A stretch of 21,873 bases of DNA from a virus: IMG/VR virus record IMGVR_UViG_3300037961_002543, positions 1-21,873 of that record. One strand, given 5' to 3'. The notes below the pieces were generated by a model. The model did not search any database. It was not told where the DNA came from and saw nothing but the letters and a program-made list of their open reading frames with translations. This document shows, one piece after another, positions 1-19,300 of this stretch; the stretch's first letter is position 1, and each line of letters begins with the position of its first letter. Position numbers and translations under genes: made by a program.

Positions 1-1
1 C

Positions 2-598
2 GTTGCTACGGAGGTCGCGCTTGCCGACACTGCGACCCGAACAAGAAACGGACGAAGAATAAAACAAGTTGAGGATATGATTCGCAAGGCGTCCCAACGC
101 GTGGTCGCAGTGTACGAGGAGTTCCTGCCTTCTGACACCAACTTGCCTGTTCGTCTGACGGATAGTCAGGAAGTTCTTAAGGTTAATCGCGAGACGTTGC
201 GTCTGAAGGACGAGCGAGATCCGGGGCAACAGCCTATGGACTACGATTACGAAACAATCCCGTACTCGCCTACCGAGAATAATCGACTTGTTCAGCTTCA
301 GAAGTTACAACAGTACATGCCTTTGCTTCAACAATCACCAGTAGTGGACCAACAAAAGTTGATTATCAAACTTTTGGACCTACTTCAGTTGCGTGACGTA
401 ATCGCACCACCTAAACCTCCGGCACCACCGGCACCTCCCGGACCTCCGGGTATGCCACCGGGCGGACCTCCGGGTATGCCACCCGGAATGCCGCCAATGC
501 CCGGAGGCGACAATATAGCTACGGGGGCTCTGCCGCCCGGAACTGAACCCCCAGCAGTCCCGACACCTATGGGTGGACCGGGCAATCCAATGATATAG
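2..598 (+). CDS. Portal protein, C-terminal part (5' end outside the window)
   Basis: The frame is open from the first bases of the window, so the ATG at 77 is an internal methionine; 198 codons of the gene are visible. The start of the visible part (ATEVALADTATRTRNGRR) followed by long amphipathic helices looks like the C-terminal helical wing/crown region of phage portal proteins, the dodecameric ring through which DNA enters and leaves the capsid. Its place just ahead of scaffold and capsid genes fits. The last ~70 residues are unusual: after a Leu/Gln-rich helix comes a Pro/Gly-rich low-complexity tail with PPG and PPGMPPG units, likely extended and disordered. The TAG stop is part of the TAGGAG sequence that forms the SD of the next gene. 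The portal call rests on pattern recognition and gene order; the N-terminal body cannot be seen. Confidence 0.75.
   Translation, partial: VATEVALADTATRTRNGRRIKQVEDMIRKASQRVVAVYEEFLPSDTNLPVRLTDSQEVLKVNRETLRLKDERDPGQQPMDYDYETIPYSPTENNRLVQLQKLQQYMPLLQQSPVVDQQKLIIKLLDLLQLRDVIAPPKPPAPPAPPGPPGMPPGGPPGMPPGMPPMPGGDNIATGALPPGTEPPAVPTPMGGPGNPMI
439..483 (+). repeat. Direct repeat coding for the portal's collagen-like tail
   Basis: A 21-base unit at 439-459 is repeated exactly at 463-483, a period of 24 bases or eight codons. It encodes the G-P-P-G-M-P-P-G units of the portal C-terminus. Shorter imperfect Pro/Gly codon runs flank it. The exact match suggests a recent local duplication or slippage. Confidence 0.85.
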
Positions 599-608
599 GA
601 GATATAAA

Positions 609-1070
609 ATGGCTAAAAGTTTAATGCCCAACCTTCAAACCATCGCTCGAAACGCAATGAGCAAAGAAACCGGAGGCTATGCCTCTGAAGATGAGCGTAA
701 GTCTCGTCAGGAAAAGAGAGCCGAACGTAAAGCCGACCGTCAGGCGAAAAGAGCCGAACGTAAAGCCGGTCGAGCAGTAGCTAAACAAAAGAGAGGTCCT
801 AAGTCGGCACGTCGAAAGGGGCAGGAATCACGAGCCGCCCGTCGCAGCGCCGCAGATACGGAAAAGAAGCTAGAGAGTGCCAAAAAGACGGCACCAACGG
901 ATAAAAAACACTCAAACGTAGCTATGGCGAAAACAGGCAAATCGGGCACAGCGGACACGCACAAAGGATCACACGGCACTGCCCCTACAAGCAAGAAGCT
1001 GACACACGGAACAACACCCGCTACGGCCGCTAGTGGTGCCAAGCCGGGTAAACCCGGCGGCAAGGGCTGA
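609..1070 (+). CDS. Highly basic low-complexity protein, function unknown
   Basis: This 153-residue protein is very rich in Lys, Arg and Ala. After a short N-terminus (MAKSLMPNLQTIARNAMSKE) comes a charged segment, about residues 29-70, with an 11-residue repeat (KRAERKADRQA then KRAERKAGRAV), likely a single charged helix. The C-terminal half is Gly/Ser/Thr/Lys/His-rich and probably disordered, ending GAKPGKPGGKG, like a histone H1 tail. There are no Cys, no membrane segment and no enzyme motif. The SD GGAG at 598-601 precedes the ATG, and its TGA overlaps the next ATG. I do not recognise a family. Non-specific binding to nucleic acid, for example DNA or an acidic partner inside the capsid, is an inference from charge and position only. 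Confidence 0.8.
   Translation: MAKSLMPNLQTIARNAMSKETGGYASEDERKSRQEKRAERKADRQAKRAERKAGRAVAKQKRGPKSARRKGQESRAARRSAADTEKKLESAKKTAPTDKKHSNVAMAKTGKSGTADTHKGSHGTAPTSKKLTHGTTPATAASGAKPGKPGGKG
717..768 (+). repeat. Direct repeat in the basic protein gene (33-base period)
   Basis: A 19-base unit at 717-735 recurs exactly at 750-768, in frame with a spacing of 33 bases. It encodes R-A-E-R-K-A twice and creates an 11-residue (hendecad-like) periodicity in the basic helix. Confidence 0.85.
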
Positions 1071-1171
1071 TGCGTCTACCCGTTAAAAAAATCCTTGATA
1101 TTGTAGGCTCTGTCCTTCGTCTTGTGGTCCCCTTGGTCCGCAAGAAGAAGGACAAGTCTAGGGAGGAGTGA
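1070..1171 (+). CDS. 33-residue small protein with a hydrophobic segment
   Basis: The start ATG overlaps the TGA of the preceding gene (TGATG at 1068-1072), and its own TGA overlaps the next ATG in the same way (1169-1173), so it fits exactly between two coupled genes. The product begins MRLPVKKILDIVG, has a hydrophobic stretch at about residues 9-23 (LDIVGSVLRLVVPLV), then a charged tail RKKKDKSREE. This is the look of a short membrane-associated or amphipathic peptide. A short AAGGG lies just before the start. No family is recognised. The double stop/start coupling is the main support; it could also be a translational bridge whose peptide has no role. Confidence 0.5.
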   Translation: MRLPVKKILDIVGSVLRLVVPLVRKKKDKSREE

Positions 1172-1326
1172 TGCACGCTTACGGCGAGCCAAGAGCAGTC
1201 GCAACGACGATTATTCTTAAAAAGTTAAAGAAGCCTAAGAAGCACGTTTTTAACGGCGATAACAAAGGGAAAACACAACTCGACGCGCACGGACGCGCCA
1301 TGAAGGGACCTTGCGGTGCAAAGTGA
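1171..1326 (+). CDS. 51-residue basic protein, function unknown
   Basis: The ATG overlaps the stop of the 33-codon gene and is preceded by a strong SD, GGGAGGAG at 1161-1168. The product has a Lys-rich middle (LKKLKKPKKH) and ends HGRAMKGPCGAK, with one Cys near the C-terminus. It is basic, without a membrane segment. The reading frame is tightly packed: the next gene starts inside its last codons. No family is recognised. It shares the Lys/Gly-rich character of the genes on both sides, so these may act together, but that is inference. Confidence 0.6.
   Translation: MHAYGEPRAVATTIILKKLKKPKKHVFNGDNKGKTQLDAHGRAMKGPCGAK
1303..1308 (+). promoter_or_regulatory. SD deciding a GTG start at 1316
   Basis: AAGGGA lies seven bases before the GTG at 1316. 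This GTG is the only possible start in its frame, because an in-frame TGA lies at 1301-1303 and no ATG or TTG occurs between that stop and the GTG. Confidence 0.5.
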
Positions 1327-1465
1327 GTACAAGAAGCGGGCGTCTAAGAAGATTGCCAAACTTATCAAAAAGGGTAAGTCTAAAAAACAGGCTGTCGCTG
1401 CGGGGTACAATATGGCTAAGAAAGGCAAAGTAGGCCCAAAAGGTGGCTACAAAAAGAAGGGATAA
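1316..1465 (+). CDS. 49-residue basic protein with a KKGKSKKQAVAAGYNM-type helix motif
   Basis: The gene starts with GTG and overlaps the previous gene by 11 bases. The protein reads SKKIAKLIKKGKSKKQAVAAG, then a Lys/Gly-rich tail ending GGYKKKG. Small phage proteins with a similar core (KI..L..EGK.QKQAVAIA) are common in phage structural modules, sometimes next to portal or scaffold genes, but I know of no assigned function. The core is probably a short helix-turn-helix-like amphipathic unit. It is strongly basic. The frame, codon pattern and recognisable core make it likely real despite its size and the GTG start. Confidence 0.6.
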   Translation: MQSEYKKRASKKIAKLIKKGKSKKQAVAAGYNMAKKGKVGPKGGYKKKG

Positions 1466-1467
1466 TA

Positions 1468-1884
1468 ATGCCGTTTTACGACTTCAAATGTCCAGAGGGA
1501 TGTGGTTACTTTAACGACGTATTTGTGCCGTTGGCCCAGCACGGCAAGACCGAGTGCCCGGACTGCGGGGCTCTCCTGTCTACTGTTATTAGCGAAGTGG
1601 CTTTGATCGGACCTATGCCATCAAAGCCCTTGGTTGTAAAGCAGATTGGTAAGTCCTTTGAGTCAGAAAGTGCATGGAAGAAGTACCAGCGGGAGAACCC
1701 TGACTCTGCGATTGTTTCGGCGGACTCACAACAATGGAAGAAGCACCGGGATGCTGTACGGGAGAAAGCAGACGCCCGTTCCCGCAAAATGGGCTACCGT
1801 GATTTTGAACATCGGTCGGCACACCGTAAAAAAGAGAAAGCTAAACAGTCTGGTAAACTTGACAAAAAGATTTTTGTCCACTAA
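1468..1884 (+). CDS. FmdB-like zinc-ribbon protein
   Basis: The N-terminus MPFYDFKCPEGCG and the later ECPDCG give four cysteines, C8, C12, C30 and C33, arranged as a zinc ribbon of the FmdB type (normally MP.Y.F.C..CG ... CP.CG). The first knuckle has three residues between its cysteines instead of the usual two. Residues ~55-138 are helical and Lys/Arg-rich, with W, H and charged residues and no second metal site. FmdB-like ribbons are frequent in phage structural regions; their role there is unknown, with DNA, RNA or protein binding possible. An AGAAGG SD lies upstream, and a two-base gap separates this gene from the previous stop. Confidence 0.75.
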   Translation: MPFYDFKCPEGCGYFNDVFVPLAQHGKTECPDCGALLSTVISEVALIGPMPSKPLVVKQIGKSFESESAWKKYQRENPDSAIVSADSQQWKKHRDAVREKADARSRKMGYRDFEHRSAHRKKEKAKQSGKLDKKIFVH

Positions 1885-1905
1885 TCAGCTACAAAGGGGT
1901 GCCTT

Positions 1906-2262
1906 ATGCCAATGATGAATGACCTACTCGAAAAACTCCAAGACGATCCACCTTCTACCGAGCAAGAACTTATGGCTGTGCTTGCAGAGACTGGGTACGA
2001 TCTCACCATGAAAGAACCTTCTATGGCCGACGAAGAGGAGGAAGAAGGTGAGATGGAGATGATGGGTGAGGAGGAAGAAGAGGAAGAAGAGGACATGGGT
2101 CCTATGGACGAGCCGGAAGGTGGTGCGGTGGAAATGGAAATCATCAAAGAAATGATGCCAATGGGTGGTATCATGAAGGGAGCGCCCGAAGGTGCTAACC
2201 CGAGAATGATGATGCAAGCGCGGACACGAAAGGCCGCGAAGAAGGCTCTTAAGGAGGGATAA
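1906..2262 (+). CDS. Polyacidic, methionine-rich protein upstream of scaffold
   Basis: This 118-residue protein has a helical N-terminus (LLEKLQDD...TEQELMAVLAETG), a nearly pure Glu/Asp segment at about residues 42-69 with runs of five and eight Glu, and a basic C-terminus (residues 100-118). Roughly one residue in six is Met. The SD AAAGGGG at 1892-1898 precedes the ATG, and the TAA overlaps the scaffold ATG (TAATG). I recognise no family. The acidic run could be a partner for the basic products just upstream, or part of a scaffold-like chaperone. That is inference from charge and gene order. Confidence 0.75.
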   Translation: MPMMNDLLEKLQDDPPSTEQELMAVLAETGYDLTMKEPSMADEEEEEGEMEMMGEEEEEEEEDMGPMDEPEGGAVEMEIIKEMMPMGGIMKGAPEGANPRMMMQARTRKAAKKALKEG

Positions 2263-3143
2263 TGAGCGAAGAGTTAGAGGCGGGGGCTGCTCCTGCTGAA
2301 TCGGGTGACGCGGCTCCTGTTGAGGCGGCTGCGGTAGAAGCGGCTCCTATCGATACGGAAGAGTCTGCCTCAGAGGTGTCTGCCGAACCGGCGGAACACT
2401 CCCTCGCCGCTGAAGAAGAAGTGGTTGAAGAGGCCCCCGTCTCTTTTCCTTCCCATGAAGATTTTGGGTGGGACGAATGGGACGGTGACCATGAGGCGCT
2501 TCCCGAGCAACTTCGGGGCTGGGGCAACCAGTTTGGCGCATACTACCACAAAAAAATGGATTCTATGGCGGCGAGCATAGACCAAACCCGAGAAATCTAC
2601 GATGCGTTGATGGGCGGACATGAAGATCCGCGCATCGCACAGATGCAGTCAGATCTATCGGGCTGGCAGGAAAAGAACGCCCATACTGAAGGTCAACTTG
2701 AGTTCCTACAAAAGGAGTTCGACGAGTATCGTCAGATTGTAGAAGAAGCTATTAAGCAAGAAGCAGATGAGTATGCTGAGGAGTTTGCTCAAAGCAATCA
2801 GGACCTGTTTGAAAATGAGCAGTTGTCCGAGCCATTTGCGGAGTTGCTAGAAGAAGGTTGGATTCTCGAACATGCTGCGGTAGCTGCGCGTCTACCCCAG
2901 CATCTCAGAGATGTTGCACGGCAGGCTAAGAGCGATGGCGTCCCAGACGCTTACGCACTTAAACTGGCTCAGGGCGCGAAGAGCAAGCCCGCAAAGCCCC
3001 GTCCGGGGGCGGCACTTACATCGGGGGCTACGACCCCGGCGCGTTCGTCCGAGCAAGTACCACTTGCTACGAACACGCCGATGTCCTTGCGTGAGTTCCG
3101 TACTCAAGTTGCGCGTAACGCCCTATCTAATAAAAGGAGATAA
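2262..3143 (+). CDS. Capsid scaffolding protein (putative)
   Basis: This 293-residue, largely helical, acidic protein sits directly before the major capsid gene, the standard scaffold position. Residues 1-65 are Ala/Glu/Pro-rich and probably disordered. A helical, coiled-coil-like region follows at about 90-185, and after a Pro/Ala linker the last 20 residues form a basic helix (SLREFRTQVARNALSNKRR). A basic C-terminal helix is the coat-binding element in P22-type scaffolds. There is no protease motif, so cleavage by a fused maturation protease is not indicated. A strong SD (AAGGAGGG) precedes the ATG, which overlaps the previous stop. The assignment is by architecture and position, not by a catalytic signature. 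Confidence 0.7.
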   Translation: MSEELEAGAAPAESGDAAPVEAAAVEAAPIDTEESASEVSAEPAEHSLAAEEEVVEEAPVSFPSHEDFGWDEWDGDHEALPEQLRGWGNQFGAYYHKKMDSMAASIDQTREIYDALMGGHEDPRIAQMQSDLSGWQEKNAHTEGQLEFLQKEFDEYRQIVEEAIKQEADEYAEEFAQSNQDLFENEQLSEPFAELLEEGWILEHAAVAARLPQHLRDVARQAKSDGVPDAYALKLAQGAKSKPAKPRPGAALTSGATTPARSSEQVPLATNTPMSLREFRTQVARNALSNKRR

Positions 3144-3145
3144 TC

Positions 3146-4213
3146 ATGGCGATTTCACCAGATGTGCTGGCGACCGCGCTCAATGAGCTTATGCCGTCGT
3201 ACAGTGAGTTGTTTGTTAAGTTCCATCCCTTGATGGAAAAAGTAATGCTGAACGGGAACCTTTCCCGCGATGCCCTAAAGGGTCCGAAGCGAGAGTTCGC
3301 TGTTGTGACTGATGGTCCCGGTACTGTGACACAGGTGTCTACAGGTACAGAGATCATTGCCGGTGGTCGTGCTCAAAACGCCGTCCGTGGTAATGTCATT
3401 GCACCTCGACTCATCTATGCGTTCGACGTTCCCGGCAAGGACTTGGCTGAGGCTAACGGCGAGATGGACCTCGCACGAATCCTTCAGCACTACCCAGAGT
3501 TGGCGCTGTCTGACTTCCATGAGCGGATCTCGAATCAGCTTGGAACAGGTAACGGTAACGGCGTTGGCGGTTTCGCTACCCTGAACGGTAACGCAAACTT
3601 CACCCCACAAGGCGAGACACGACAGGGCTTCTTCGAGGCTGCTGCACCGTCTGCTCAGACCAACACTTGCCACGGCCTCGACAAGGCAACTACCAACGGC
3701 TGGCACAACCAGTACGAAGACATCTCTTCGTTCGCCACCAACGGTCGTAGCCAAATGCGTAAGGCTTACTTCGCTGCTTCTCGTCAAGGCAAGACCATGG
3801 GTCCTGTCGATTTGATGATCGGTGACGAGGCTTCTTACCTCAACTACATCGACGACTTGGACGATCAAGTCCGCGTTGTCAAGGTTGAAGGCGACAAGGC
3901 TCCACCTCTCGTCCGTCAGGGCGTGAAGTTCCTCGAAGCTGACTTCTACCTCGATGACTCCATTGACGTGTCTAGCGCCAACTTCTCTGCTCCAATGCAG
4001 GACGGCGTTATCTACGGAATGAAGACGCCGACTTGGCACCTGTTTACCCTTGGCCACGATTCAGGTCGCGAAACGAAGGGCGACTTCGCTCTCCGTGGAC
4101 CGTTCCGTATCCCTGACCAAGACATCTTCCGCTACGAGCTTGTGTTGATGATGGGCCTCCACACCACGCAACTCCGCGCTAACTTCCTCGTTACCGGCGC
4201 TGGCACGCCTTAA
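3146..4213 (+). CDS. Major capsid protein
   Basis: This 355-residue protein is close in length to podovirus capsid proteins such as T7 gp10A (345). It has a short helical N-terminus, then a beta-rich stretch (REFAVVTDGPGTVTQVSTG) and a long helical region (DLARILQHYPELALSDFHER), followed by mixed alpha/beta sequence with VDLMIGDEASYLNYIDDL and a C-terminal FRYELVLMMGLHTTQLRANF strand set, consistent with an HK97-type fold. The SD AAGGAGA at 3135-3141 overlaps the previous gene's stop. Codon use differs from the neighbours: C-ending Phe, Tyr, Asn and Ile codons dominate, and only one Leu codon of about 30 is CTA, while CTA is common in other genes here. That bias is typical of the most highly expressed phage gene. 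No slippery frameshift site is visible at its 3' end. Confidence 0.8.
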   Translation: MAISPDVLATALNELMPSYSELFVKFHPLMEKVMLNGNLSRDALKGPKREFAVVTDGPGTVTQVSTGTEIIAGGRAQNAVRGNVIAPRLIYAFDVPGKDLAEANGEMDLARILQHYPELALSDFHERISNQLGTGNGNGVGGFATLNGNANFTPQGETRQGFFEAAAPSAQTNTCHGLDKATTNGWHNQYEDISSFATNGRSQMRKAYFAASRQGKTMGPVDLMIGDEASYLNYIDDLDDQVRVVKVEGDKAPPLVRQGVKFLEADFYLDDSIDVSSANFSAPMQDGVIYGMKTPTWHLFTLGHDSGRETKGDFALRGPFRIPDQDIFRYELVLMMGLHTTQLRANFLVTGAGTP

Positions 4214-4222
4214 GGAGATACT

Positions 4223-4735
4223 ATGTCTGGATTTACAGCAGCGGGCATTAGCCCGACTACAGTTACTGCAACGCAACAAGCCCCACTTGGGTTCAAGCTC
4301 ACCGTTCCTAACGGTGACAACGGATTCCAAGTGTACACCTACATCAAAGCCGCAGTTAATGTTCTGCAAGGCTACGCTGTCCAGCGTGCCGGAACGTCCA
4401 CTGATGGCGGCTACGGTGCGTGTTCTCTAGCGATTGACGATAACAACCTACGGGCTGTCGGTGTAGCACAGCAGGCAAACGAGTTGGATCCCGCATCTAC
4501 GGGAACCAACTACGCTATCCCTGCGAACTACTACGGATTCGTATTGACCGAAGGCGTGGGTACAGTGTACACAGCTACCGCAGCGGCAGCATATGATACG
4601 CTTGTTATTCACACGACAGACGGTCAACTCGACGATGCCAACCCCACCGCGACAAACGGTGCGGTAGCATGTGTCGGCGGAACCGCGATCGGCGCAACAA
4701 GCACCGGCTTGGCCCTCGTCAAGTTTGCAGGCTAG
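4223..4735 (+). CDS. Capsid decoration / head protein (putative)
   Basis: This 170-residue protein is rich in Gly, Ala, Thr and Val, short on charged residues and predicted to be all beta. Features such as RAVGVAQQAN, NYYGFVLTEGVGTVYT and AYDTLVIHTTDGQLDDA resemble the beta-barrel or beta-tulip capsid decoration proteins found immediately after many phage capsid genes, where they sit on the capsid surface. The SD sequence TAAGGAG (4211-4217) contains the capsid gene's stop. The gene ends in a tandem TAG TAG directly followed, in the same frame, by the ATG of the adaptor gene. The decoration call is based on position and sequence feel; a minor head protein is the alternative. Confidence 0.55.
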   Translation: MSGFTAAGISPTTVTATQQAPLGFKLTVPNGDNGFQVYTYIKAAVNVLQGYAVQRAGTSTDGGYGACSLAIDDNNLRAVGVAQQANELDPASTGTNYAIPANYYGFVLTEGVGTVYTATAAAAYDTLVIHTTDGQLDDANPTATNGAVACVGGTAIGATSTGLALVKFAG

Positions 4736-4738
4736 TAG

Positions 4739-6463
4739 ATGAATCTCAAAGAGATTCGGGATGCGATGTTCGCTCAGGCGGACTACTCACCGAGTAGTTC
4801 TCCTGAAGCGATCACCCGCGTCAACGGCTTCATCAACCGGGCTTACAACACGTTGGCCTTGGAAGCCCCGTTTCTCTTCTTTGAGTCTAAGGTTGAGCTA
4901 GTCACTGAACCTGATGTAGTACCCAAAGCGGGTATCCCCGCCGTCCCGTTGCTCGACAGAGTGACGATGGCGGCGGACCATACCCTTCCAGCCGGTGCGT
5001 CGAGAGATGCATGGACTTGGAGAACGACTTACACACTTACCCAACAACAGAACGCTCCCGACAACTTTACGTTGTGGGATTTTGGTCGTGGTTGGGACGG
5101 TCGGATGATCGACATTATCGCTAATGATGCGGAAAGCACGATTCACCGACACCAGATTAGGTCTGTTTGGCTTAACAACGCCGACGGATACTTTTATTTT
5201 ACTACAGTGCGGCCTACCGCTTCGATAGGTACGCTGTCTACGGGGCAGTTTAAGTACCGTATCCACACCGAATCGTACCCACTGCCCGACAACGTAGTAC
5301 AACTCAAGTCAGCGTGCTTTCGCGACATTGACATGAACTACCCACTAAGCGTATTCGGCCAAGATGAGGCCGCGCAACGCCAGCTTAGTGGACCACCTAG
5401 CCAAGTAGCTAGCGGCATCCCACGGGTGATTTTCCGTGAAAGCCACATCCACATGCGTGGACCCAGTGTCCCTCCTGTTGCGTCACCTAGAACAGTGGCT
5501 CCTTGGCGCGGACCTGAACCTCCCGGATCGTTCCAATACAAAGTCACCTACACTTGGGGCAAGCGGGATTCGGACACAAAAGCACCGGGCCTCGGCCAGT
5601 GGGACGGTACGGCTATTACCTACCAGAACACGACTACCAATACTTTTCCAGCACCACCTGTGTCTTCGACATCGGGCGATAACTCATCTCGCAATCGCTT
5701 TAGGACTCCTAGGTTCGAGTCTCCAGCATCTCCCGAGTCTGAAGTGGCAGTTACCGAAGTTGTAACTGTGGGTGACGTGTCTGGATTCTCTCAGATTAAG
5801 GTGTCTCTACCTAACATCCAATACGCACTTGGCTTTCTAGCTGGTGTAGCGCAGGCAGGCACGGTATACGACAGAAGCTCTGTACCCCAGAGTGGAGTCT
5901 ACGTCCGCATTTACCGCCGACGTGTCAGTACGAACTTTGATGACTACTCGACAATGACTAATAAGGTAATCGACCTAGACAAGTCTCAACTAGACACCGA
6001 CGAGGGCTACTACCTGCTAGCGGAGACTCGCGTAGATAGGAACAACGACGGCATCTTTGTAGACGACGGCACATTCTTGCCCGACTACAGTGTGCGTCTC
6101 AAAGACATTCACGGCTACCAAGCCATGCAGTTTTATCCTAAGCCCGACAAGCGGTACGTCGCGGAGATCAGGGCTGTAGTCAAGCCCGAGAAGCTAGTAG
6201 CCGATACGGATACACCGTGGTTACACTCTGAAGCTATGAGCGTACTAATCGAAAAGGCAATGTCTCTATTTTACGAAAATCTAGGTCAAATGCCTCTAGC
6301 TCAAGTAGCTACTCAAAAGTATCGCGAAGCTCTACTGACTCTCTCAAAAAGATACGGTGACCTTCGACCTCCGAACACACCTGTGTTACGGAGAATGACG
6401 AGGGCAACGACCTCGTATCGAAGTAATCATTATTACCGGAAGTGGTGGACCACTTCAAGCTGA
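4739..6463 (+). CDS. Head-tail adaptor-like protein with an inserted beta domain
   Basis: The N-terminus (EAITRVNGFINRAYNTLALEA then FLFFESKVELVT) matches the helix-then-strand start of phage head-tail adaptor (tail tubular A / connector) proteins. The C-terminal part, MQFYPKPDKRYVAEIR at 463-478, TDTPWLHSEAM near 490 and the final helix bundle, also fits. Between them, about residues 255-450, lies an extra domain with strands FQYKVTYTWG (265-274) and VYVRIYRRR (387-395) and the FVDDG turn, typical of a fibronectin III/Ig-like insert. At 574 residues it is far longer than T7 gp11 (about 196), mostly because of this insert. The product would sit under the portal ring. The SD is weak (CAGG, seven bases upstream), suggesting translational coupling to the preceding gene. 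Confidence 0.65.
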   Translation: MNLKEIRDAMFAQADYSPSSSPEAITRVNGFINRAYNTLALEAPFLFFESKVELVTEPDVVPKAGIPAVPLLDRVTMAADHTLPAGASRDAWTWRTTYTLTQQQNAPDNFTLWDFGRGWDGRMIDIIANDAESTIHRHQIRSVWLNNADGYFYFTTVRPTASIGTLSTGQFKYRIHTESYPLPDNVVQLKSACFRDIDMNYPLSVFGQDEAAQRQLSGPPSQVASGIPRVIFRESHIHMRGPSVPPVASPRTVAPWRGPEPPGSFQYKVTYTWGKRDSDTKAPGLGQWDGTAITYQNTTTNTFPAPPVSSTSGDNSSRNRFRTPRFESPASPESEVAVTEVVTVGDVSGFSQIKVSLPNIQYALGFLAGVAQAGTVYDRSSVPQSGVYVRIYRRRVSTNFDDYSTMTNKVIDLDKSQLDTDEGYYLLAETRVDRNNDGIFVDDGTFLPDYSVRLKDIHGYQAMQFYPKPDKRYVAEIRAVVKPEKLVADTDTPWLHSEAMSVLIEKAMSLFYENLGQMPLAQVATQKYREALLTLSKRYGDLRPPNTPVLRRMTRATTSYRSNHYYRKWWTTSS

Positions 6464-6473
6464 GGGAGACAGT

Positions 6474-6698
6474 ATGGAACAGATGATTTGTGGCGCAGTT
6501 TATGAGGTTAAAGAAACCAACCGAGTTCGCCAAGGCACGCTTGTTGGTGTTACCTTTGAAAACAACAACACTGTAGGTGCTGTGCAGTTTGCAGGGCACG
6601 CACCAGAGCTTGTACAGCATGGCTCCGAACGATGGAACATGTTTAAGATGATTGGTCGCCCCGCTTCACCAAAGGTCGGTCGTCCGAAGAAGGGGTAA
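6474..6698 (+). CDS. 74-residue conserved-looking small protein, function unknown
   Basis: A GGGAG SD lies ten bases after the adaptor stop, ahead of this ATG. The protein begins MEQMICGAVYEVKETNRVR and has alternating strands (RQGTLVGVTFENNNTVGAVQFAG), a WNMFKMIGR segment and a basic tail RPASPKVGRPKKG. The central part looks like a small beta-sheet or SH3-like fold. GRPKKG resembles an AT-hook core, but one copy is weak evidence for DNA binding. It lies between adaptor and nozzle genes, so a minor virion or tail assembly role is possible. No family is recognised. Confidence 0.65.
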   Translation: MEQMICGAVYEVKETNRVRQGTLVGVTFENNNTVGAVQFAGHAPELVQHGSERWNMFKMIGRPASPKVGRPKKG

Positions 6699-6701
6699 CA
6701 G

Positions 6702-8936
6702 ATGGCGGACAAACAAGGAGTCGCCTCGTTAGGCCCCTATATCCTTCGGGTACAGTCGGGTAAGCTATTTACGCCCAACGACGTAGCGTCAGACATTAAC
6801 AACTTCTTCGCTACACCTGAAGGTACACTCCGGGCTGTTACGGGACCTGCGGGCCTTGTTTTGAACGATGGTGTATTGCCCCGTGCATTTACGGGTGACG
6901 GCACCAGTCCTAGTGGTACGATCAAGTACGGTAGTCGGATGCATGGCATTTACCATGCGTCTCTGCTGAACAATCAGCGTGATGTGCTTTTGCTGCATAC
7001 GAACGACGAGATCTGGGAGTTCACGGGCTGGGACCGTTGCTGGCGTAAGCTAGTAGCGAGTGTCAAACCTACTTATGGCGTAAGGGCCGACCTAGTAGAC
7101 TCGACCCAACCGCAGTTCCCTACTCAGTTTGAGTCAACCAGTAACGGTGTAGTTATTGTACCTCAAGACCAGCGGGCATTCTTCTACGATGGCGTTACGA
7201 TCGCCCCACTGGGCTTCTCACGCAAGCCGGGACCTCCGGTTGGTCGTGGCCCCTCTAGTAGTAAGCACCGTTCTAGCCAGCGTGGCGCGGGGATTAACGA
7301 CATTGGTTACGCCCACGACGGCACACCTTATGACGACGAACGTAACCTATACGAAGTTGGCATGGAGTCAGGCTTTGGGGTTTGCCGTGTAGGCACGTCG
7401 TCTAACCTAACGTTTGATTCTGCCGTATTTGGTACGTCAGACTCACCCGCAAACGCAGGCTGGCTGCTGAACGGTGAGTATAGGTGCAAGACGCAGTACA
7501 TTGATAAGTGGGGCAACCTATCTGCAATGTCCGCTCCATCTGATGGGGTTAGGTTCCAGTTTCAACCGTCTAAGATTCCTGCCCCCGGCACAGGCACCTC
7601 GGTGGCTTACGGTTCAGATCAAATGCTCAAGCAGATTGCTTGGACCAACATCTCTTTGGGTCCAGAGCACTGCATTGGCCGGGTACTCTACCGTACTAAG
7701 GACATGGTTAACTCCGGTACGCAGGACTACTTCCGACATACACAGAACGCTGCTGGCGTGGCGTCTGACTTTGCTACTCTGCCCGACAACATAACTCAGA
7801 TTTACCCCGACAATATCCCCGATGCGTTCTTGATCACCAAGGCTGAGGAGATCGATCCCGTACCTAACTTCAAGTTATGCCGCATGGCATTCGGGAGGCT
7901 TTGGATCGGCAATATGGCCGATACTCCCGGTATGATTAAGCCCTCGATGCCGGGACGTTTTGGTACGTTCCCTTCTAATCAGGAGTTGTACCCGGACCCA
8001 ACAGGCGGTGAGATCACAGGCATGTGGCGGGCCAATCGCGGTCTGCTTGTATTTACCCGTGCGGGCACGTTTGTAGTTGAGCCCTCGGACGACGGGGCTA
8101 GATTCAAGTCATCCGTATTGTCTTCTCAGGTAGGCTGTGAGGCCCCTAGTTCTATTGCTACACTGGACGATGGACGGACCATTTGGTTGGCTAAGGACGG
8201 GTTTTACACTTACGACGGTGCAAGTATTAAGTTTATCTCGGAAGAGCTTCGGGAGATCTTCAAACAAGTAACACCGTCAAGGCGCGTACAAGCTAACGCT
8301 GTGTATGACCCGAAGACTAAAGAGTATCGTTGTTGGGTGTCTACGAATGGCAATGTGGACAACGATACTTGCTTTGTCTACGACGGCAGGGGCTGGAGAC
8401 GGCGTACTGACTTTACAGCACGAAGCGTATGTGTGACTCAGGACCACAGGTCGTACCTTATCGGTGCTGGTTATAATGGAGTAAGGACCGGAGCTTTTGT
8501 CCTCGACACTCCTTCCAGCGACACTGCTTCAAAACAGGCGAACAACCTGCGTGAGGCGTCCATTGAAACTGCATGGATGCAAAGTCAGCAGTCGCTAAAC
8601 AAAAACACCACTCGTAAGATCTACCTCTGGCTCCGCGAAACGGCTAACTCGGACATCACCATTGACGTTTACCGTGACTGGCGCAGTCCTGTGACAGAGA
8701 CAGTTACGACCAAAAGATACGCGGGCGATGATGTACCTAAGTTTTACGAAAGCACAAAACTGGGCTCAGGTGCCACGTTCCACAGTCGCCGTCCGTTTTG
8801 GACCCGAGCATCTGTGTACGTTCCATCCAATGACACGTTTAAGTTTAAGATCTCCGGCACGGGTGACTGGGAGTTCATTGGGTTACAGGTAGATGTTGCG
8901 CCAAGAGCATACGGTGGTGCGATGGTTCCGCCGTAG
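6702..8936 (+). CDS. Tail nozzle-like beta-propeller protein
   Basis: This 744-residue, beta-rich protein follows the adaptor, where T7 carries the nozzle protein gp12 (794 residues), a beta-propeller hexamer that closes the tail. Blade-like repeats are visible: VLLLHTNDEIWEFTGWDRCW (~96-115), GVVIVPQDQRAFFYDG, LCRMAFGRLWIGN, GLLVFTRAGTFVVEP (~443-457), GCEAPSSIATLDDGRTIWLA (~477-496), KDGFYTYDG and EYRCWVSTNG. Within it, residues ~258-350 look like a fibronectin-type insert: GEYRCKTQYIDKWGNLSAMS, then GRVLYRTKD. The last ~140 residues form a separate beta domain ending WEFIGLQVDVAPRAYGG. An AGAAGG SD lies upstream. Its TAG forms part of the next SD (TAGGAGG). The nozzle role is inferred from order, size and propeller-like repeats. 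Confidence 0.65.
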   Translation: MADKQGVASLGPYILRVQSGKLFTPNDVASDINNFFATPEGTLRAVTGPAGLVLNDGVLPRAFTGDGTSPSGTIKYGSRMHGIYHASLLNNQRDVLLLHTNDEIWEFTGWDRCWRKLVASVKPTYGVRADLVDSTQPQFPTQFESTSNGVVIVPQDQRAFFYDGVTIAPLGFSRKPGPPVGRGPSSSKHRSSQRGAGINDIGYAHDGTPYDDERNLYEVGMESGFGVCRVGTSSNLTFDSAVFGTSDSPANAGWLLNGEYRCKTQYIDKWGNLSAMSAPSDGVRFQFQPSKIPAPGTGTSVAYGSDQMLKQIAWTNISLGPEHCIGRVLYRTKDMVNSGTQDYFRHTQNAAGVASDFATLPDNITQIYPDNIPDAFLITKAEEIDPVPNFKLCRMAFGRLWIGNMADTPGMIKPSMPGRFGTFPSNQELYPDPTGGEITGMWRANRGLLVFTRAGTFVVEPSDDGARFKSSVLSSQVGCEAPSSIATLDDGRTIWLAKDGFYTYDGASIKFISEELREIFKQVTPSRRVQANAVYDPKTKEYRCWVSTNGNVDNDTCFVYDGRGWRRRTDFTARSVCVTQDHRSYLIGAGYNGVRTGAFVLDTPSSDTASKQANNLREASIETAWMQSQQSLNKNTTRKIYLWLRETANSDITIDVYRDWRSPVTETVTTKRYAGDDVPKFYESTKLGSGATFHSRRPFWTRASVYVPSNDTFKFKISGTGDWEFIGLQVDVAPRAYGGAMVPP

Positions 8937-11948: not shown

Positions 11949-13375
11949 TGGCGGACACTAAACCACAACCAAAGCAGTCAGGCGTTTCCTCTAGACTTCA
12001 AGGCAGGCTCGAAGAGTATCTACGCCAACGACGTAAGCAGCGAGGTAAAGCTGCTATGGCGTTGTTTGGTATTGATACGGAGCCTACTGTATCGGAGATG
12101 GCCGAGTACAACAGAGCTATGATGCCAGCGATTAACGACGTAATCGCGCTTCAGGGCAAGATGTACGATTCTGCCCAAGCCCGGAGTAAAGACCGCGCTA
12201 AGGTGCTTGGTGACATGCTAAGTAACGTGCGTGCTTTGATCGATAGTCGAGCTAGAAACTCCTCTGGCATGGCTAAAGCCAAGCTCATGGCACACTCCCG
12301 AAACGTGAGCAACATGCTCAAGGGCTTGGACCTAGCGCAGTCAGGTGGTACACAACGATTGTCGGATACGGCAGAAGGTCAAGACAAGATTCGTGAGTAC
12401 GCTGCTGCCGCTGTGCGTAAAGCAACTTCGGTAGGTGGACAAGATCCTCAAGGCGCAGGCGTGACGTTAGGACAAAAACTAGGTGACCCACAAGACAGGG
12501 CGCTAGCCATGCAGTATGTAGCAGAGTCTATTCGGGCAGGCGGCAAGGGAGTTCCCGGATTTACGTCGTCCGATAGGGACGTTATCAAGCAGGGAATGGA
12601 TGGTATCCCTCAAAGCACACTCCAACTACAAGAGTCGGACATCGAAAACGCTGGACTTCAGGACGCTACGTCTGAAGACCTAGCCTATGTCTCTTTGGGC
12701 AAACACGCTGCCGTAAGCAAGGAAGACATCGGCGCTGCTTTCCTGATGGAAAAGCAGATGATTGACGCTACTCAAGGCGGCTACGGGGGCTCATTCGGGG
12801 CTACTATGGCTGAGTTGATTAGCGCCACTACTTCTGGTCAGACGACAGACGTACAAGAGGCACTTGACGATTTGGTCGGTCAGATTGGTCTTAGCCCGGA
12901 TGAAGCGGCTACCGTAACCAACCAAGATATGTATCAAGAGATGCTACTTGGTCAGTTGTACAACCCAAATGCGCCATCCGCTGTGGAGCAGGCTCGCGAC
13001 CAACTACTGCAAGATCCGGGATTCCTGAAGTACAAAGAGTCAATGGGCTTCCACTCCGATAGGGCGGCTTTTAAGTCACTTAAGAAGCAACTACGTCGTG
13101 AACGTCGTCGGCAAAACAAAGAAGATAGGCAACTACTTAGGTACACAGGCAAGTCCGCTTCGCCTCAAGCCATCAGCGCCCTCAAAGCCTTGCAAGAGAA
13201 CGAGGATGCGGCTAAGAAAGAAGCAGATGACGCCGTGGCGTCCTCTTCGGCTAAGGTCGTTCAACCTGCCTCGCCGGAATCAACGTCAGTGAAGACCGGA
13301 GGCATCGGTGGCCGAACTCAAAATACCCAAGCCCCCGCAGGGCTCGGCAATACCAGCCAAAACCAAGGTAGTTAA
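11948..13375 (+). CDS. Putative internal virion (ejection) protein, middle of three
   Basis: This 475-residue protein is mostly helical with few aromatics and no Cys. It begins with a basic segment (SSRLQGRLEEYLRQRRKQRGK), continues with Ala/Ser-rich helices, and ends with a charged helix (RRERRRQNKEDRQLL, ~380-394) and a Ser/Pro/Gln-rich disordered tail. No enzyme motif is visible. Its slot between a gp14-like and a giant protein is that of T7 gp15, an ejection-channel component, although T7 gp15 is longer (747). SD is weak (GGTGGA), so translation probably depends on coupling to the previous gene. The last 68 bases also encode the start of the 2,200-residue protein in another frame. Confidence 0.5.
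   Translation: MADTKPQPKQSGVSSRLQGRLEEYLRQRRKQRGKAAMALFGIDTEPTVSEMAEYNRAMMPAINDVIALQGKMYDSAQARSKDRAKVLGDMLSNVRALIDSRARNSSGMAKAKLMAHSRNVSNMLKGLDLAQSGGTQRLSDTAEGQDKIREYAAAAVRKATSVGGQDPQGAGVTLGQKLGDPQDRALAMQYVAESIRAGGKGVPGFTSSDRDVIKQGMDGIPQSTLQLQESDIENAGLQDATSEDLAYVSLGKHAAVSKEDIGAAFLMEKQMIDATQGGYGGSFGATMAELISATTSGQTTDVQEALDDLVGQIGLSPDEAATVTNQDMYQEMLLGQLYNPNAPSAVEQARDQLLQDPGFLKYKESMGFHSDRAAFKSLKKQLRRERRRQNKEDRQLLRYTGKSASPQAISALKALQENEDAAKKEADDAVASSSAKVVQPASPESTSVKTGGIGGRTQNTQAPAGLGNTSQNQGS
13298..13302 (+). promoter_or_regulatory. SD deciding the GTG start of the giant protein
   Basis: GGAGG lies five bases before the GTG at 13308, inside the 3' end of the previous gene. The next in-frame ATG (codon 61 of this frame) has no comparable SD and would cut off a Lys/Pro-rich N-terminus, so GTG is the better start even though it creates a 68-base overlap. 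Confidence 0.7.
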
Positions 13376-16300
13376 AACCGAGAAGATACTCGAAACCGGA
13401 CCTCCTGAGAAGGAAGCTAAGAAGCAGGACGTACCTAAGCCCGCGCCGCTACCTCCGAAGAAAGAAGCGAAGATTGTCCGGTCATGGATGGGTATTAACC
13501 CGAACGACATGCCTGAGAATCTGCGTCCTTTGGTGCAGATGTATGGAGAGGCCGCACACAGGCTGGGTGCGGACAATGATGTAAGCAAGAGCATGAACTT
13601 GCCGGAGCGTCAGCGTATTAAGAACGCTGACCTTCAGGAGCTACAACGCCTAAAACGCATGATGCCCGATGCCGCAGCACGGGAGGAAATGAAGAAGGCG
13701 CTCTACAGAAAGCAGCCCCTCTACGAGGGCTGGGACCACTGGGGCATGAACCTAATCGAGCAACGGGACGCCCGTCTCGGTAAGCTCATGGAAGAGCGTG
13801 GTATAAAAGACACCGCAGAAAACAGGGACAGCGTACTCAAGGGGCTGATTGAAGGTGTACGCACCCAGCAGGAGTACGATCCTAATAATCCGCTGTTTGA
13901 CCCGAACAAAGCTGATACTCTGGATGAGAACGCACACGAGATCTTAAACATCTGGTCGATGGAGAACTTGAACACCAAGTTTGAAACCGCCAAAGATCTA
14001 CGAAACCAGTTTGGTGAGTACTACGACAAGCACTCTCAGCTTCAGAAAGACTACGAAGAGCTACTGGCGCGTCACTCTTCTGAGAACACACCCAAAGAAA
14101 TACGCAACATCGTACTGAACGGTAAGATTGTAGGGGCAGTACCAAAGTTTGGTGAGTTTATTGATTCTCAGCTAGCTACAGCGACAACCAACGAGTTGGC
14201 TCGTAACCTGTTTAGTAACAAAACAGATCGTAAGCTACTCGACCTATACGCAAGAGGAGCTACTAAAGATAAAACCGAAGAGCAGCTACTTCGGGCTTTC
14301 GGCAACGAGGTGGACGTAGCCACTTTCCGGCAGAACGCATTCGCTGCCTCTGAGGACGCGCTTCCGTCTGAATCGTATGTACCTATGACCATGACCCCTG
14401 ACGGGCGTATGGCTTTCGACAAAGACGGACTCCAGCAGGGTGTGTATCTGGCGCTGTACGATGTCGAACTGCAACGTATGGGCGTAGACGACGGAGACTT
14501 GTCACCGCAACAGATACAAGATTTACGCGAAAAGGTATGGCGAAAGACCAAGATGCATACCGAAGCCATGTTGGATGACGATGCACTTATGGTGAACGTA
14601 GATCCTGACGATGCGCTAAGGTCATTCTTAGACAAAAAAGGCTTCCGGGGTGGCCTGCTCAAGTTGAATGAAGCATTCAACACCGTGATTACGTTAGGTC
14701 AGAAAGAAAAACTGATGAACAACCTGCCTGACCGGGTGTTCAAGGGACTCCTAGCTATGACGCTGCCCCGCCGTGCAGGCGGAATCGTGACAGAAGGTGG
14801 TGAGGAGATTGGTTTTGTCCGCGAGGGCGAACTGTTTGCTGGACCGACTCTGGGTAACAACGCAGCCACCAACTCTATGGACTACCTACTTAGGGTGTTT
14901 GGTATTCTGGATGAGCCTGTTACTCGGTCGTTTGCACTTGCGGTAGATGATGAGGCCAAATCTCGTCAGCCGGATACTAAGGGTAGACCCTTACGAATCC
15001 TAAAACGTATGGCGGACAACTTTGGAACTGACCGCCACGTCTCTTTTATTACGGCAGATGCCCACGCAGGTGGTAGGTTCCTGACTGAGTTTGGTGATGC
15101 CTTTATCAATCCACTACTCGGTGACTATGGCAAGGAAAATCCCGGACTAGGCACAGCCCTCGGGGCCGTTGCAGCTATGGCGTTCTTTATCTACACACCA
15201 AGCGCGCTCGAACTCGGCTCACTCGGAGCGAAAGGAACTAAGCTACTAGATAAAAAAGTCGCGCGTAAGATGGGCTTCACTGACAGGTCTATGCTCGCTG
15301 CTGGATCTCGCGGAATACTCAACGTACTCAACACCGTAACAGAGCAGTTTAAGGTTGCGGGTAAAGTTAGCACAAAAGACGAGATTGCAAAGACAGATGC
15401 GGCAATCGAAAAGGCGGCTAAGTTAGATAAGACGGGCGCATTGGCTACGTTTAGTTTGCTTGCGTCCGCAGGTACGTTGATGAACCACGGACTAGCGGCA
15501 AACCTTCGGCAGGGCGCGATCAAGCGTATGACCGATATGTACAGTGGCCTGAAAGACCGTAGGGACAAACAGCTACAGGCGGCTCTAGACGCCGAGGAAG
15601 CGGCAAAAGGCCGGAAGAAAGATGCCAAACGGGTAGCCCTGACGCTACGGGCACTAAAGAACAGGATCACAGCGGCACAAGAGGGCTTACGCGCCGAAGA
15701 AGTAGTAGCGAAGTCCTTGGAGCTAGTAGCCGAATCGGACGAAATACAACGTGCTCTTAGTGAGTTGCTGACCAAAGCAAACAAGACGGAAGACGCTGAT
15801 TTTATTGCAGATGCGTTTGCCTTTTTGCGTAGTGACCTAGACGAAGTAGGTGACCTCGATCTATTCCTACAGAAGCACAAGCTAGTACCGGACGGTTTTA
15901 AGCTGTCTGACGATCCGGGGCTTCGCGTAGCACAAATCCGTACCTTGGTAGCCGACAAGTTCCGAAAGGTGATGGAGGCTACACCCGATACAAAGGCTAT
16001 TTTGGGTCGAAGTGAGTTTGCTGAGGGCATTCTCAAGTCAAAGGGTATTGTTCTTAACCTAGCCAAAGAGATCAACCTTCTAGAGAAGATGCTCCGTAAG
16101 TACACTGAAGACGTGTCCATACTTAGGAAGAATGGTCTAGCCCCGAAGCATGTCCTAGCTAGTTTTGACGACACACTACAGAAGTATGCTGGTCGTGTTC
16201 AGGACTTGGTAGATGACGCAAACGAACAGCAAAAGTACATCGAACGGCTAGCAGAACGTAAAAAGTCACTTAAAACCGCTACTGATGCTCAGATCGAACA

Positions 16301-19300
16301 GATGGCAGTAGACAGTTACAACGAGTACTTAGACCGACTTAGGTCCTTGGCCGAAGGTGCTCAAAAGGTGACGGACCTATCTGACGATGAGTTTGAAGCC
16401 GTAATGAAGGCAACCTACGGTAAGGGCCATGAGGCGTTTGCCAAAGGGCTCATCGAAGGTGACACGGACGAAGCGCGGAAACTGTCCGAGATGCTGATGC
16501 CCGCTAATGTGGATAACGCAGAGGAAGCGGCAAAGGAAATATCAGAGCGTCTGTTTGAAACCAAGACACTGGCAGGCATTCTTCGAGATCCGTTCAGTGA
16601 GATCCAGTTGCAGATACGGTCACAAGTACGCGCCGTAGATTTCTTCCGGGACATCCGGGCATGGAAAATCTACACCGTACTTAATCTGACGCCTACACTA
16701 CGGAAGTACCCTATCTTTACCACGCGCATCAGATTCTTGGAATCAACTGTTCGTCGAGAGTTAGACGATGCGGCAAAGGATACAGCACGCCGCACAACAA
16801 ACGTGATGGATTCGTTGAACCTTATCTACGTCCATGTTGAAGACCCTAAGCTAGCGGATAAACTGGCTATGGACTTGCTTCAAGGAACCTCAAAGGTCAT
16901 TGACATTGAAGCTAAGTACAAGATCCCTTTTACTAAATCAAACAAGCTCACATTAACGGGTATTGCAGATCGATCTGAGTCTCTGCTCGACACGTTTGTC
17001 GAGCGAACACTACAAATGCGTTCCGCAAAGAAGAAAGCAGGCAAACAGCAGGTGGGCGACACCGCTGACATGGGCTTACGGACAGCCATCAAAGCCTTCT
17101 TAGATGACAAAACACTTCTACGCGCAGACATCAAGGAAGATGTACTTAAGATTGAAGATGACGTAGCCGAAATGCTGTTCCAAGCAAAAGAGCAGGGCTC
17201 GATCATCACGGTATCTTACCTTATGGATGTGCTCGCTTCGGCAATCACAAAACAAGGACTTGAGGTCATAAACAAAGACTCCGGGGCTGTGGGCTTGAGG
17301 TCCAAAACGCTGCTATACCGGGGCATTATTGTAGGTGCGGCACAAGAAGACTTTCTTAAGCGTATCTTTAACATCATCGGCCCCCGTTTCAACGCACGCA
17401 TGGCACGCGCCATGAACTACCTACAGGGACAGGGCGGTGAGGCTGTCGATCAGTTCGCCGCCAAGAGCTTCCAAAAGGGAGATTGGGTAGTATTACGGGA
17501 GCAAAACCGGAACATGAACGCTTTGGTCGATGATGTCATAATCCGGGCCGAAAAGGATGACTTCGGTAAGCCCGTAGTCGATGAGTTTGGTAAGGAAGAA
17601 TCTATCCGTCCGTTTATCGCAGAACGGGAGGTAGACCCTAACTTCAAACTAACCCCCGGTGGTGTCGTGCCGAAACGGCTGGCTGAGGACAAAAGCTGGG
17701 ATGAACGCCTAGAAGCGAAGCGTCAGTACTATGACGTAGAGAAGCTAGAGTATAAACGTGCCCCTAAAATCGAAGAGAAGATGAGAGAGCTAAGTGGCGA
17801 TTCAGCTCTTCAGATCAACAAGATAGACGAAGACGGAACCGTACACCTTTTTAATCCCAACACAGGTGAGATGGACACAAAGACTCTAGATGAAATCGTA
17901 CATCGCGACGTTACCGTATCTGTCCTAGACGCTATTGACGGGTTTAGTATCTGGGGCATGGAAATGATGGACAACATCGGTAGGTCTAAAGCTACTGAAA
18001 ATATGCGTGGAGTACGGACTGCGTACCAGAAGATGGTTGCTATCGGAACCAACGGTGACGACTTGAGAATGGTGCCCGAATCTATACTCACACCACTAGT
18101 AGAATCCCTTACCAACATTGAGAAGGAACTGGACACCGCTTTGAGTGCAAAGGCGGCAGAGGGTGGCCTAGTGAGGATAAACATCCTTAGCTTCAAGAAG
18201 GTAATGAGATGGTGGAAGACGCACATCCTCACTGGGCTCATTGTCCCACGTCCTGCGTATTTTATGAACCAGCTATTCGGTGACTTCTCACAGTTGTTCG
18301 TAACTATGGGACCACAAACTGCTGCTGGACTCACATTCATGGGCTCGCTTGCTTACGTCCCAGTCTTTGGAAATGCCTTGCAGGAAGGCTACTTTCAGAT
18401 GATGGCACGGATGCCTCCCGGCAAAGTGCCATTGCCGGGTATGTTCTCCGCTATGTTCAACAACTCGATGGCCAAGATACTAAAGGGCTCGAATGAGTTG
18501 TCACCCGTCAAGGGCGCGGACGGTGAGTTCCTTACCTTTAACCAGCTACTTGGTGAGGCAGTAGGTGCCGGTGTCCGCGATAACATCGTAAGCCCCGAGA
18601 CTTCGGAGGCGGCAATCGAGGCACTACGACGTACCAAGAATCTAAATCCCACCCTCTGGGAGAGCTTGGCACAACGCGGGCAAGACCTGAAGTACATGCA
18701 GAACCTTACGCAGATTAAGATTCACCATGTGCAGACACGTCAGCGTCTACTCTTGTACTTGCACCTACGCATCAACAAGGGCTTGTCTGCGGACGACGCC
18801 CGGAAAGGCTTACACAATAGTCTGTATGATTGGTCGTACTCGGTGGGTCGTCAGGAGATGGATTTCATCGGACGAAAAGTCCTGTTCTACACCCTGTCTA
18901 AAAACGCTATGGCACAGGTGTTCCGCACTTTCTTTGAGCACGCAGATGTAGGTACAAAGGAGTACATGCGTAGGTATGCGCGGGGTCAGACCCAGTTGCA
19001 GCGGGTAGAAGGTATGGCTCGATTGCAGTCTAGCTTCCCCGGAGCACCGAACCCATTCGAGGAGTTGAGCCCCGAGGAGCAGCGTATCCAAGCCGAGCTT
19101 CAGTTCCGGCCTGATTACTTTGATGAGTACCCATTCATGTCGTTTGATGCTCTGTCAGAAGAGGCGCAGGACATCATGACAGACGGTGGCTTCCTCCGCA
19201 CCATGTACGGAAGATCTCTTCCTAAGTCAACAATCGTCGAGTATATGACCCAGATGTTCGACATCATTGGTAGTCTGTCTGCGGTGGCCGCCGCCGGGGG

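Follow-up and report, generated by a model that had tools for sequence, protein, structure and literature searches.

Between the portal gene and a zinc-ribbon gene of an uncultured virus lie four small genes, here called A to D, which form a variable, swappable cassette of accessory genes, each absent from many relatives. A short motif found at the C-terminal end of the predicted scaffolding proteins of this clade recurs at the start of A, at the end of the acidic protein E encoded before the scaffold, and at the ends of unrelated proteins of the clade, and it is concentrated at the ends of proteins encoded on the head side. From these sequence comparisons we read the cassette, with somewhat less than even confidence, as a set of accessory head-assembly genes, in which A and E would carry a version of the scaffold helix and co-assemble into the procapsid.

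Gene order and coding evidence

The whole stretch of DNA analysed, hereafter the window, spans positions 1 to 21,873 of a virus record of 40,949 bases, the start of which falls inside the portal gene. The gene order is portal, A, B, C, D, zinc-ribbon gene, acidic gene E, scaffold and major capsid protein, with the following features.

2..598, plus strand: portal gene, 3' part, with a proline-rich tail (open frame; full-length relatives)
609..1070, plus strand: gene A, 153 aa, net charge +26; N-terminal leader, then a low-complexity basic region
633..662, plus strand: candidate motif LQTIARNAMS in gene A, residues 9-18, scaffold-tail-like, 8.5 bits
705..768, plus strand: 33-base tandem duplication within gene A
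1070..1171, plus strand: gene B, 33 aa, net charge +6; amphipathic hydrophobic helix and basic tail
1171..1326, plus strand: gene C, 51 aa, basic, net charge +9; also in the related loci L002 and L010
1316..1465, plus strand: gene D, 49 aa, net charge +17, GTG start; modelled two-helix hairpin and basic tail
1468..1884, plus strand: zinc-ribbon gene, 138 aa (PF09723, E = 2e-8)
1906..2262, plus strand: acidic gene E, 118 aa, with a basic scaffold-like C-terminal tail
2224..2253, plus strand: candidate motif TRKAAKKALK in gene E, scaffold-tail-like, 8.4 bits
2262..3143, plus strand: predicted scaffold gene, 293 aa (position and helical model)
3099..3128, plus strand: scaffold tail motif RTQVARNALS
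3146..4213, plus strand: major capsid protein (phrog_9953, E = 4.8e-7; 55 related loci)

The run from A to D (609-1465) fills 857 of the 869 bases from the portal stop to the next gene; the A/B and B/C junctions both read TGATG, and D begins within C, sharing its last 11 bases. The coordinates, lengths (153, 33, 51 and 49 codons) and coupling of the four frames in the first-pass annotation proved exact, and three of the genes are, as it remarked, short enough to escape length cut-offs. It had placed the run between portal and scaffold; this position holds, except that the zinc-ribbon gene (1468-1884) and the acidic gene (1906-2262) intervene before the scaffold. Promoter-like sites were not in excess (2 against 2.1 expected), terminator-like sites numbered 8 against 5.6 expected, all 8 on the minus strand, and a tRNA search found none. 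Farther along the window, a frame of 2200 residues (13308-19910), possibly encoding a virion protein, had no PHROG match at E 0.01.

A full-length relative of the portal protein matches phrog_156 (E = 7.7e-21), and in locus L003 there is a match to PF16510, P22_portal (E = 1.2e-7); these matches support the portal assignment in the window, with a portal of the P22 type. The product of 2262-3143 is predicted to be the scaffold from its position and its helical model, and searches of Pfam and PHROGs gave it no confident family match. In its AlphaFold2 model (mean pLDDT 74.6, pTM 0.42) long high-confidence helices lie within residues 82-178, and the model ends in a flexible linker followed by a separate helix at 276-292, with pLDDT mostly 70-75. 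Residues R280 and A287 are invariant among 32 aligned scaffolds. The strong hits of a fold search, two in number, were to viral proteins without names (E = 1.4e-18 and 3.4e-10), and a third, weak hit carried the label scaffolding protein (E = 0.053). When the scaffold profile was compared with solved structures, the best match (E = 0.011) was to a designed helical protein, which we read as a chance likeness between helices and rejected.

A search with the capsid protein yielded 55 related loci. No cultured relatives were found in the phage collection with window DNA 1-4300, the capsid protein or the zinc-ribbon protein, and no relatives of the capsid protein were found among genome contigs. 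All but one of the 55 loci (54) have the zinc-ribbon gene after the cassette, and its pN/pS with L002, the nearest relative, is 0.10; for gene E a pN/pS of 0.19 was obtained. Cassette contents were counted in 51 loci, including the window and near-duplicate loci, in which both the portal and the zinc-ribbon gene could be placed. Family A was present in 15 of these, B in 23, or in 26 if a divergent form is counted, C in 3 and D in 13, three of the D loci holding forms of only 24-25 aa. Other families occupy the same site, namely H in 13 loci and HNH-class genes in 8, and 9 loci are empty (L040 doubtfully so). The gap between portal and zinc-ribbon gene ranges from 0 to 1,047 bases and is mostly tiled by small frames, with a one-base overlap the commonest junction (31 cases). 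HNH-type endonuclease-like genes were seen at the cassette site in L017, L018, L021, L027, L028 and L031. In a further locus, L072, we noted on the minus strand a DNA polymerase-like gene of 819 residues (3636-6095), the N-terminal part of which looks by eye like a uracil-DNA glycosylase, and a gene (6651-7415) that looks by eye like a C5 cytosine methyltransferase and is overlapped by a second long frame on the same strand.

Frames of the same families occupy the same place in relatives. Values of pN/pS with the window were 0.54 for A (one pair, with L002, the two differing by an in-frame 54-base indel), 0.07-0.37 for B (4 pairs), 0.36-0.50 for C (2 pairs) and 0.37-0.63 for D (3 pairs), to be read with the caveat that the genes are short and dS is saturated in some pairs. 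Because same-family frames exist in relatives and pN/pS is below 1 for all four, A to D are real coupled genes, and the possibility that they are spurious frames is ruled out. The first-pass annotation had named loss of the frames in close relatives as evidence against them. The outcome was mixed: L002 keeps A, B and C, while two other small genes replace D in it, and the nine empty loci lack the run altogether. A to D are therefore real but accessory genes.

Gene B is the most widespread member of the cassette. Its residues M1, P4, K6, L16 and R17 are invariant in 16 sequences, and a scan with its pattern found 22 loci, in every one of which the clade's portal is present. Among 47 D loci, 4 have a distant portal match (24-26% identity) 1.3-1.8 kb before D.

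Family H, examples of which are L002:6153-6317, L073:3995-4147 and L074:3962-4144, has five invariant histidines in 12 sequences (H19, H22, H23, H27 and H45), a pattern that makes metal binding possible; comparison with solved structures gave no match up to E 1. The family was confirmed in at least 501 viral contig stretches. Of 80 loci that were kept, 6 are from this clade, and 50 found no placement by the panel used. A scaffold gene of the type found in phage P-SCSP2 lies upstream of H in 24 of the 80; 18 of these 24 also have a capsid gene downstream, and the rest gave no capsid match.

The scaffold-tail motif at protein ends

The last element of the predicted scaffolds in this clade is a helix with the pattern SLxxxRxxVARNALxxxRR, and a core pattern of the VARNAL type is present in 54 of 56 loci. 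A position model was trained on the 36 unique scaffold tails from these 54 loci, and on nothing else. Applied to 561 non-redundant non-scaffold proteins, the model found 9 N-terminal matches of at least 12 bits, against a mean of 0.85 and a maximum of 4 for 200 column-permuted models, and 31 C-terminal matches of at least 8 bits, against a mean of 6.4 and a maximum of 20. At thresholds of 8, 10 and 12 bits alike, all 200 permuted models fell short of the real counts.

Matches were concentrated on the head side. At 8 bits, 11 of 218 head-side proteins matched at the N-terminus and 28 of 218 at the C-terminus, as against 4 and 5 of 870 proteins from outside loci and 3 and 1 of 269 from the side of the clade genomes comprising the major capsid protein and beyond; the reversed model matched 2 of the 218 head-side proteins at each end. 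With E excluded and the threshold raised to 10 bits, 16 of 193 head-side proteins matched, against 2 of the 870 outside proteins (p = 9e-11), which have the composition of other phages, a bias for which the 269 controls from the same clade partly compensate. Against these clade controls, 94 of which are minus-strand frames and many of those probably not genes, the comparison was 16/193 with 2/269 (p = 4e-5). At least two of the 16 matches look false (L021 and L049), and without these two p is 2e-4. Position within the protein mattered as well: among head-side plus-strand proteins of at least 80 aa, E included, 26 of 7866 terminal positions reached 10 bits, compared with 3 of 22713 internal positions, and downstream of the scaffold none of 8208 terminal positions did so.

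When families were compared with 254 controls by the Mann-Whitney test, scores were raised at the N-termini of A (13 sequences, p = 1.8e-4) and H (8, p = 4e-5) and at the C-termini of E (27, p = 3.5e-12). Because the N-termini of HNH-class proteins (9, p = 6e-5) and of D (9, p = 0.002) also exceeded the controls, basic composition explains part of the result for A and H. The tests on A, H and E are, moreover, partly after the fact, since the likeness was first spotted there by eye. Against shuffles of their own sequences, 23 of 28 unique E C-termini scored at p<0.05; the corresponding figures were 2/13 for A, 4/11 for H, 2/10 for HNH-class and 4/10 for unclustered proteins, and 0/18 for B, 0/3 for C and 1/9 for D. 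Genes directly before the scaffold scored at least 8 bits at the C-terminus in 25 of 45 cases and below 8 in the other 20. As the E orthologues are kin to one another, their matches represent roughly one origin.

Upstream genes of L020, L008, L039, L054 and L035 had played no part in that first impression. Motif-bearing proteins of 97-430 residues are encoded upstream of the portal in L020, L008, L007, L039 and L054. They include a 97-residue basic protein with the motif at an end (L020:56-349, MSLKEKRRKAARNALKP) and a 191-residue protein (L054:3454-4029); larger motif-bearing proteins before the portal are encoded at L008:2303-3520 (405 residues) and L007:1783-2928 (381 residues). In L039 the motif occurs in three adjacent genes before the portal (L039:1776-3805) and in one after it, and seven ends of six non-scaffold proteins score at least 7 bits there; the weakest match, of 7.3 bits, is on a 577-residue protein that is probably the terminase, to judge from its size and place. 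Three L054 genes (486-1217, 3454-4029 and 4029-4571) all begin MADLxxxKRxxxA, and the scaffold tail of that locus is SLDDKRMIVARRAL. Ten motif-bearing proteins of other loci gave weak family matches only, the best with E 0.0014.

In the window itself, the copy in A scores 8.5 bits, with p = 0.09 when compared with shuffles of its own sequence. Leaving close relatives out of the training gives 7.6 bits, and 3 of the 269 clade controls score as high. The A homologue of L002 has a stronger copy, VQAVARNALS, at 12.1 bits. No N-terminal copy is convincing in the A proteins of L010, L020, L023 and L024. We regard the tag in the window A sequence as moderate evidence. Its DNA agrees with that of the window's scaffold tail at 13 of 30 bases, which gives no hint that it was copied recently. 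The copy in E scores 8.4 bits (p = 0.0045 against its own shuffles) and 8.5 bits with close relatives left out, as high as which is 1 of the 269 controls. Across the clade, covariation between tags and scaffold tails within genomes was weak, 54 of 5000 draws being as high (53 tags). Matches that look false were on an HNH frame in L021, a frame overlapping another gene in L049 and a minus-strand frame in L032.

Possible roles of the small genes

If the cassette does consist of accessory head-assembly genes, it would be expressed along with the genes for the head, in an uncultured phage clade whose portal is of the P22 type. The VARNAL helix would form the coat-docking end of the scaffold and attach to the coat protein on its inner side, and docking of this helix would allow A and E to be co-assembled into the procapsid along with the scaffold. 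The flexible basic body of A would then stay with the DNA or exit the head. B, C and D, in which no convincing tag is found, may loosely be assigned as small head- or DNA-associated partners, and gene E is possibly a second scaffold. A coat-docking tag is proposed because of an analogy with the scaffold of phage 80alpha and with SaPI1 CpmB; by that analogy the scaffold tail may bind the coat, the tag may function and A may enter the head. The first-pass annotation had suggested that the small proteins are made with the head genes and serve as assembly factors or are packaged. Their genetic position agrees with this and the motif at the start of A lends it moderate support; its proposal of DNA condensation found no support.

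A broader form of the idea, which we consider doubtful, is a cargo-loading code, in which the coat-binding helix of the scaffold would have been reused as an address tag on the ends of many unrelated proteins. If so, a gene that gained the tag near the portal or the scaffold would have its product loaded into the procapsid, and the small basic genes of the window would be one swappable cargo set. To our knowledge, how proteins are chosen for tailed-phage heads is understood for a few models only. With a short scaffold-derived tag that can be recognised from sequence alone, packaged proteins could be predicted in uncultured phages, small unassigned genes would gain a testable role and protein cages a new loading peptide. 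Should the tag idea fail, the run would still stand as real genes.

It is rather unlikely that A and E are transient factors and not cargo, mini-scaffolds like CpmB that compete with or fine-tune the scaffold at the coat and exit together with it before DNA packaging. Such a role would suit E, an acidic protein with a basic scaffold-like tail, encoded directly before the scaffold at a position where 25 of 45 genes reach at least 8 bits, and passages of PMC5644958 describe CpmB as acting in this way on the 80alpha coat. It leaves unexplained, however, why many A proteins have a basic body of low complexity and why the motif occurs on proteins of 381-430 residues encoded before the portal.

That small genes unrelated to the head, whether mobile or accessory (HNH nucleases or host-directed factors, for example), simply use the site as a landing place seems to us improbable. 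The presence of HNH-class genes there in 8 of 51 loci, the variable content with 9 empty loci, and an H-family relative near the lysozyme gene in phage HTVC111P would be expected on this account, but the concentration of the motif at head-side protein ends would not, nor would the P-SCSP2-type scaffold gene some 0.8-1.1 kb upstream of H in 24 of 80 kept loci. We judge it equally improbable that the motif is a generic amphipathic helix rich in Ala, Arg and Lys with no coat-docking signal. Its residues are simple, HNH-class and D proteins exceed the controls, covariation is weak and some matches look false; against this, matches are far fewer with reversed or column-permuted models, outside these phages and at internal positions.

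The first-pass annotation also described all four products as very basic and the first as carrying a hendecad-like repeat. Families B, C and D are indeed basic throughout (+5 to +17), but net charge in family A runs from -9 to +26 across 15 loci, its body changing between them. The repeat is a local 33-base tandem duplication (705-768; 1.9 copies, 90% match) that is absent from L002. A high positive charge, to be expected of a DNA-binding protein of the histone H1 or HU type, is not conserved in the A family; B, C and D remain positive. Searches with A to D gave no DNA-binding family above the Pfam cut-off and none that was convincing in PHROGs. Gene D matches phrog_2423 (E = 6.1e-7; residues 6-42 on profile positions 9-45 of 52), a family without assigned function, over most of its profile, and AlphaFold2 models D as a two-helix hairpin (mean pLDDT 82.7, 7 sequences). 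Both of its Pfam matches are below threshold, one to z-alpha, a domain that binds nucleic acid (E = 0.064, with 13.8 bits against a cut-off of 21), and one to Ntox8 (E = 0.082); a fold search with D found nothing at E 0.001 or better, and matches in the phage collection were at chance level at best (E 3 or worse). That the small products are histone-like proteins packaged with the genome to condense DNA, the scaffold-like motif being incidental, is improbable, slightly more so than the two preceding alternatives: the basic B, C and D families, the +26 of the window A and the sub-threshold z-alpha match of D speak for it, but no DNA-binding family reaches cut-off, the charge of A is not conserved, its repeat is local and all of the genes are missing from 9 of 51 loci.

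Comparison with known systems

In phage T4, an N-terminal capsid targeting sequence directs small internal proteins into the prohead, where a prohead protease removes it. In this clade a leader motif recurs in several proteins and might act in a comparable way; unlike that of T4, it takes after the tail of the scaffold. The proteins scanned, which represent a subset of the genes, included no prohead protease.

Runs of tiny, mostly basic genes that include an H-family relative also occur in Prochlorococcus phage P-SCSP2, which passages of PMC9860041 describe as T7-like, and in Pelagibacter phage HTVC111P. The H-family relative lies between the scaffold and capsid genes in P-SCSP2 and elsewhere in HTVC111P; the window genes A to C were not seen in either phage. 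In the main text of the P-SCSP1u structure paper, a term search turned up neither mass spectrometry nor scaffold nor small proteins. In the limited, open-licence literature searched, we found no paper in which several head proteins of a single phage bear scaffold-like tags.

The clade is like P22 in having a P22-type portal and a C-terminal helix in the predicted scaffold. Passages of PMC9965877 describe C-terminal helices of the P22 scaffold that bind the N-arm of the coat protein; compared by description, the P22 helix-loop-helix differs from the single terminal helix of the window model.

The closest parallel is with 80alpha and SaPI1. According to passages of PMC5644958, the 80alpha scaffold touches the coat protein with its last 16 residues, and a near-identical C-terminal RIIK helix-and-hook enables SaPI1 CpmB to compete for the scaffold's site on the coat. 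As in that system, a short C-terminal helix of the scaffold recurs here in a second small protein, at the C-terminus of E; a terminal motif in common with the cognate scaffold is found in the E family and across the clade, and to a moderate degree in the window A. Unlike CpmB, the copies lie in the phage's own head region, on several unrelated proteins and at N-termini too, and the motif sequence is different. CpmB comes from a satellite that changes capsid size, whereas the genes described here lie, in relatives, between the phage's own terminase/portal and capsid genes. Because they are encoded by the phage itself, we do not class them as CpmB, though they may perhaps work alike.
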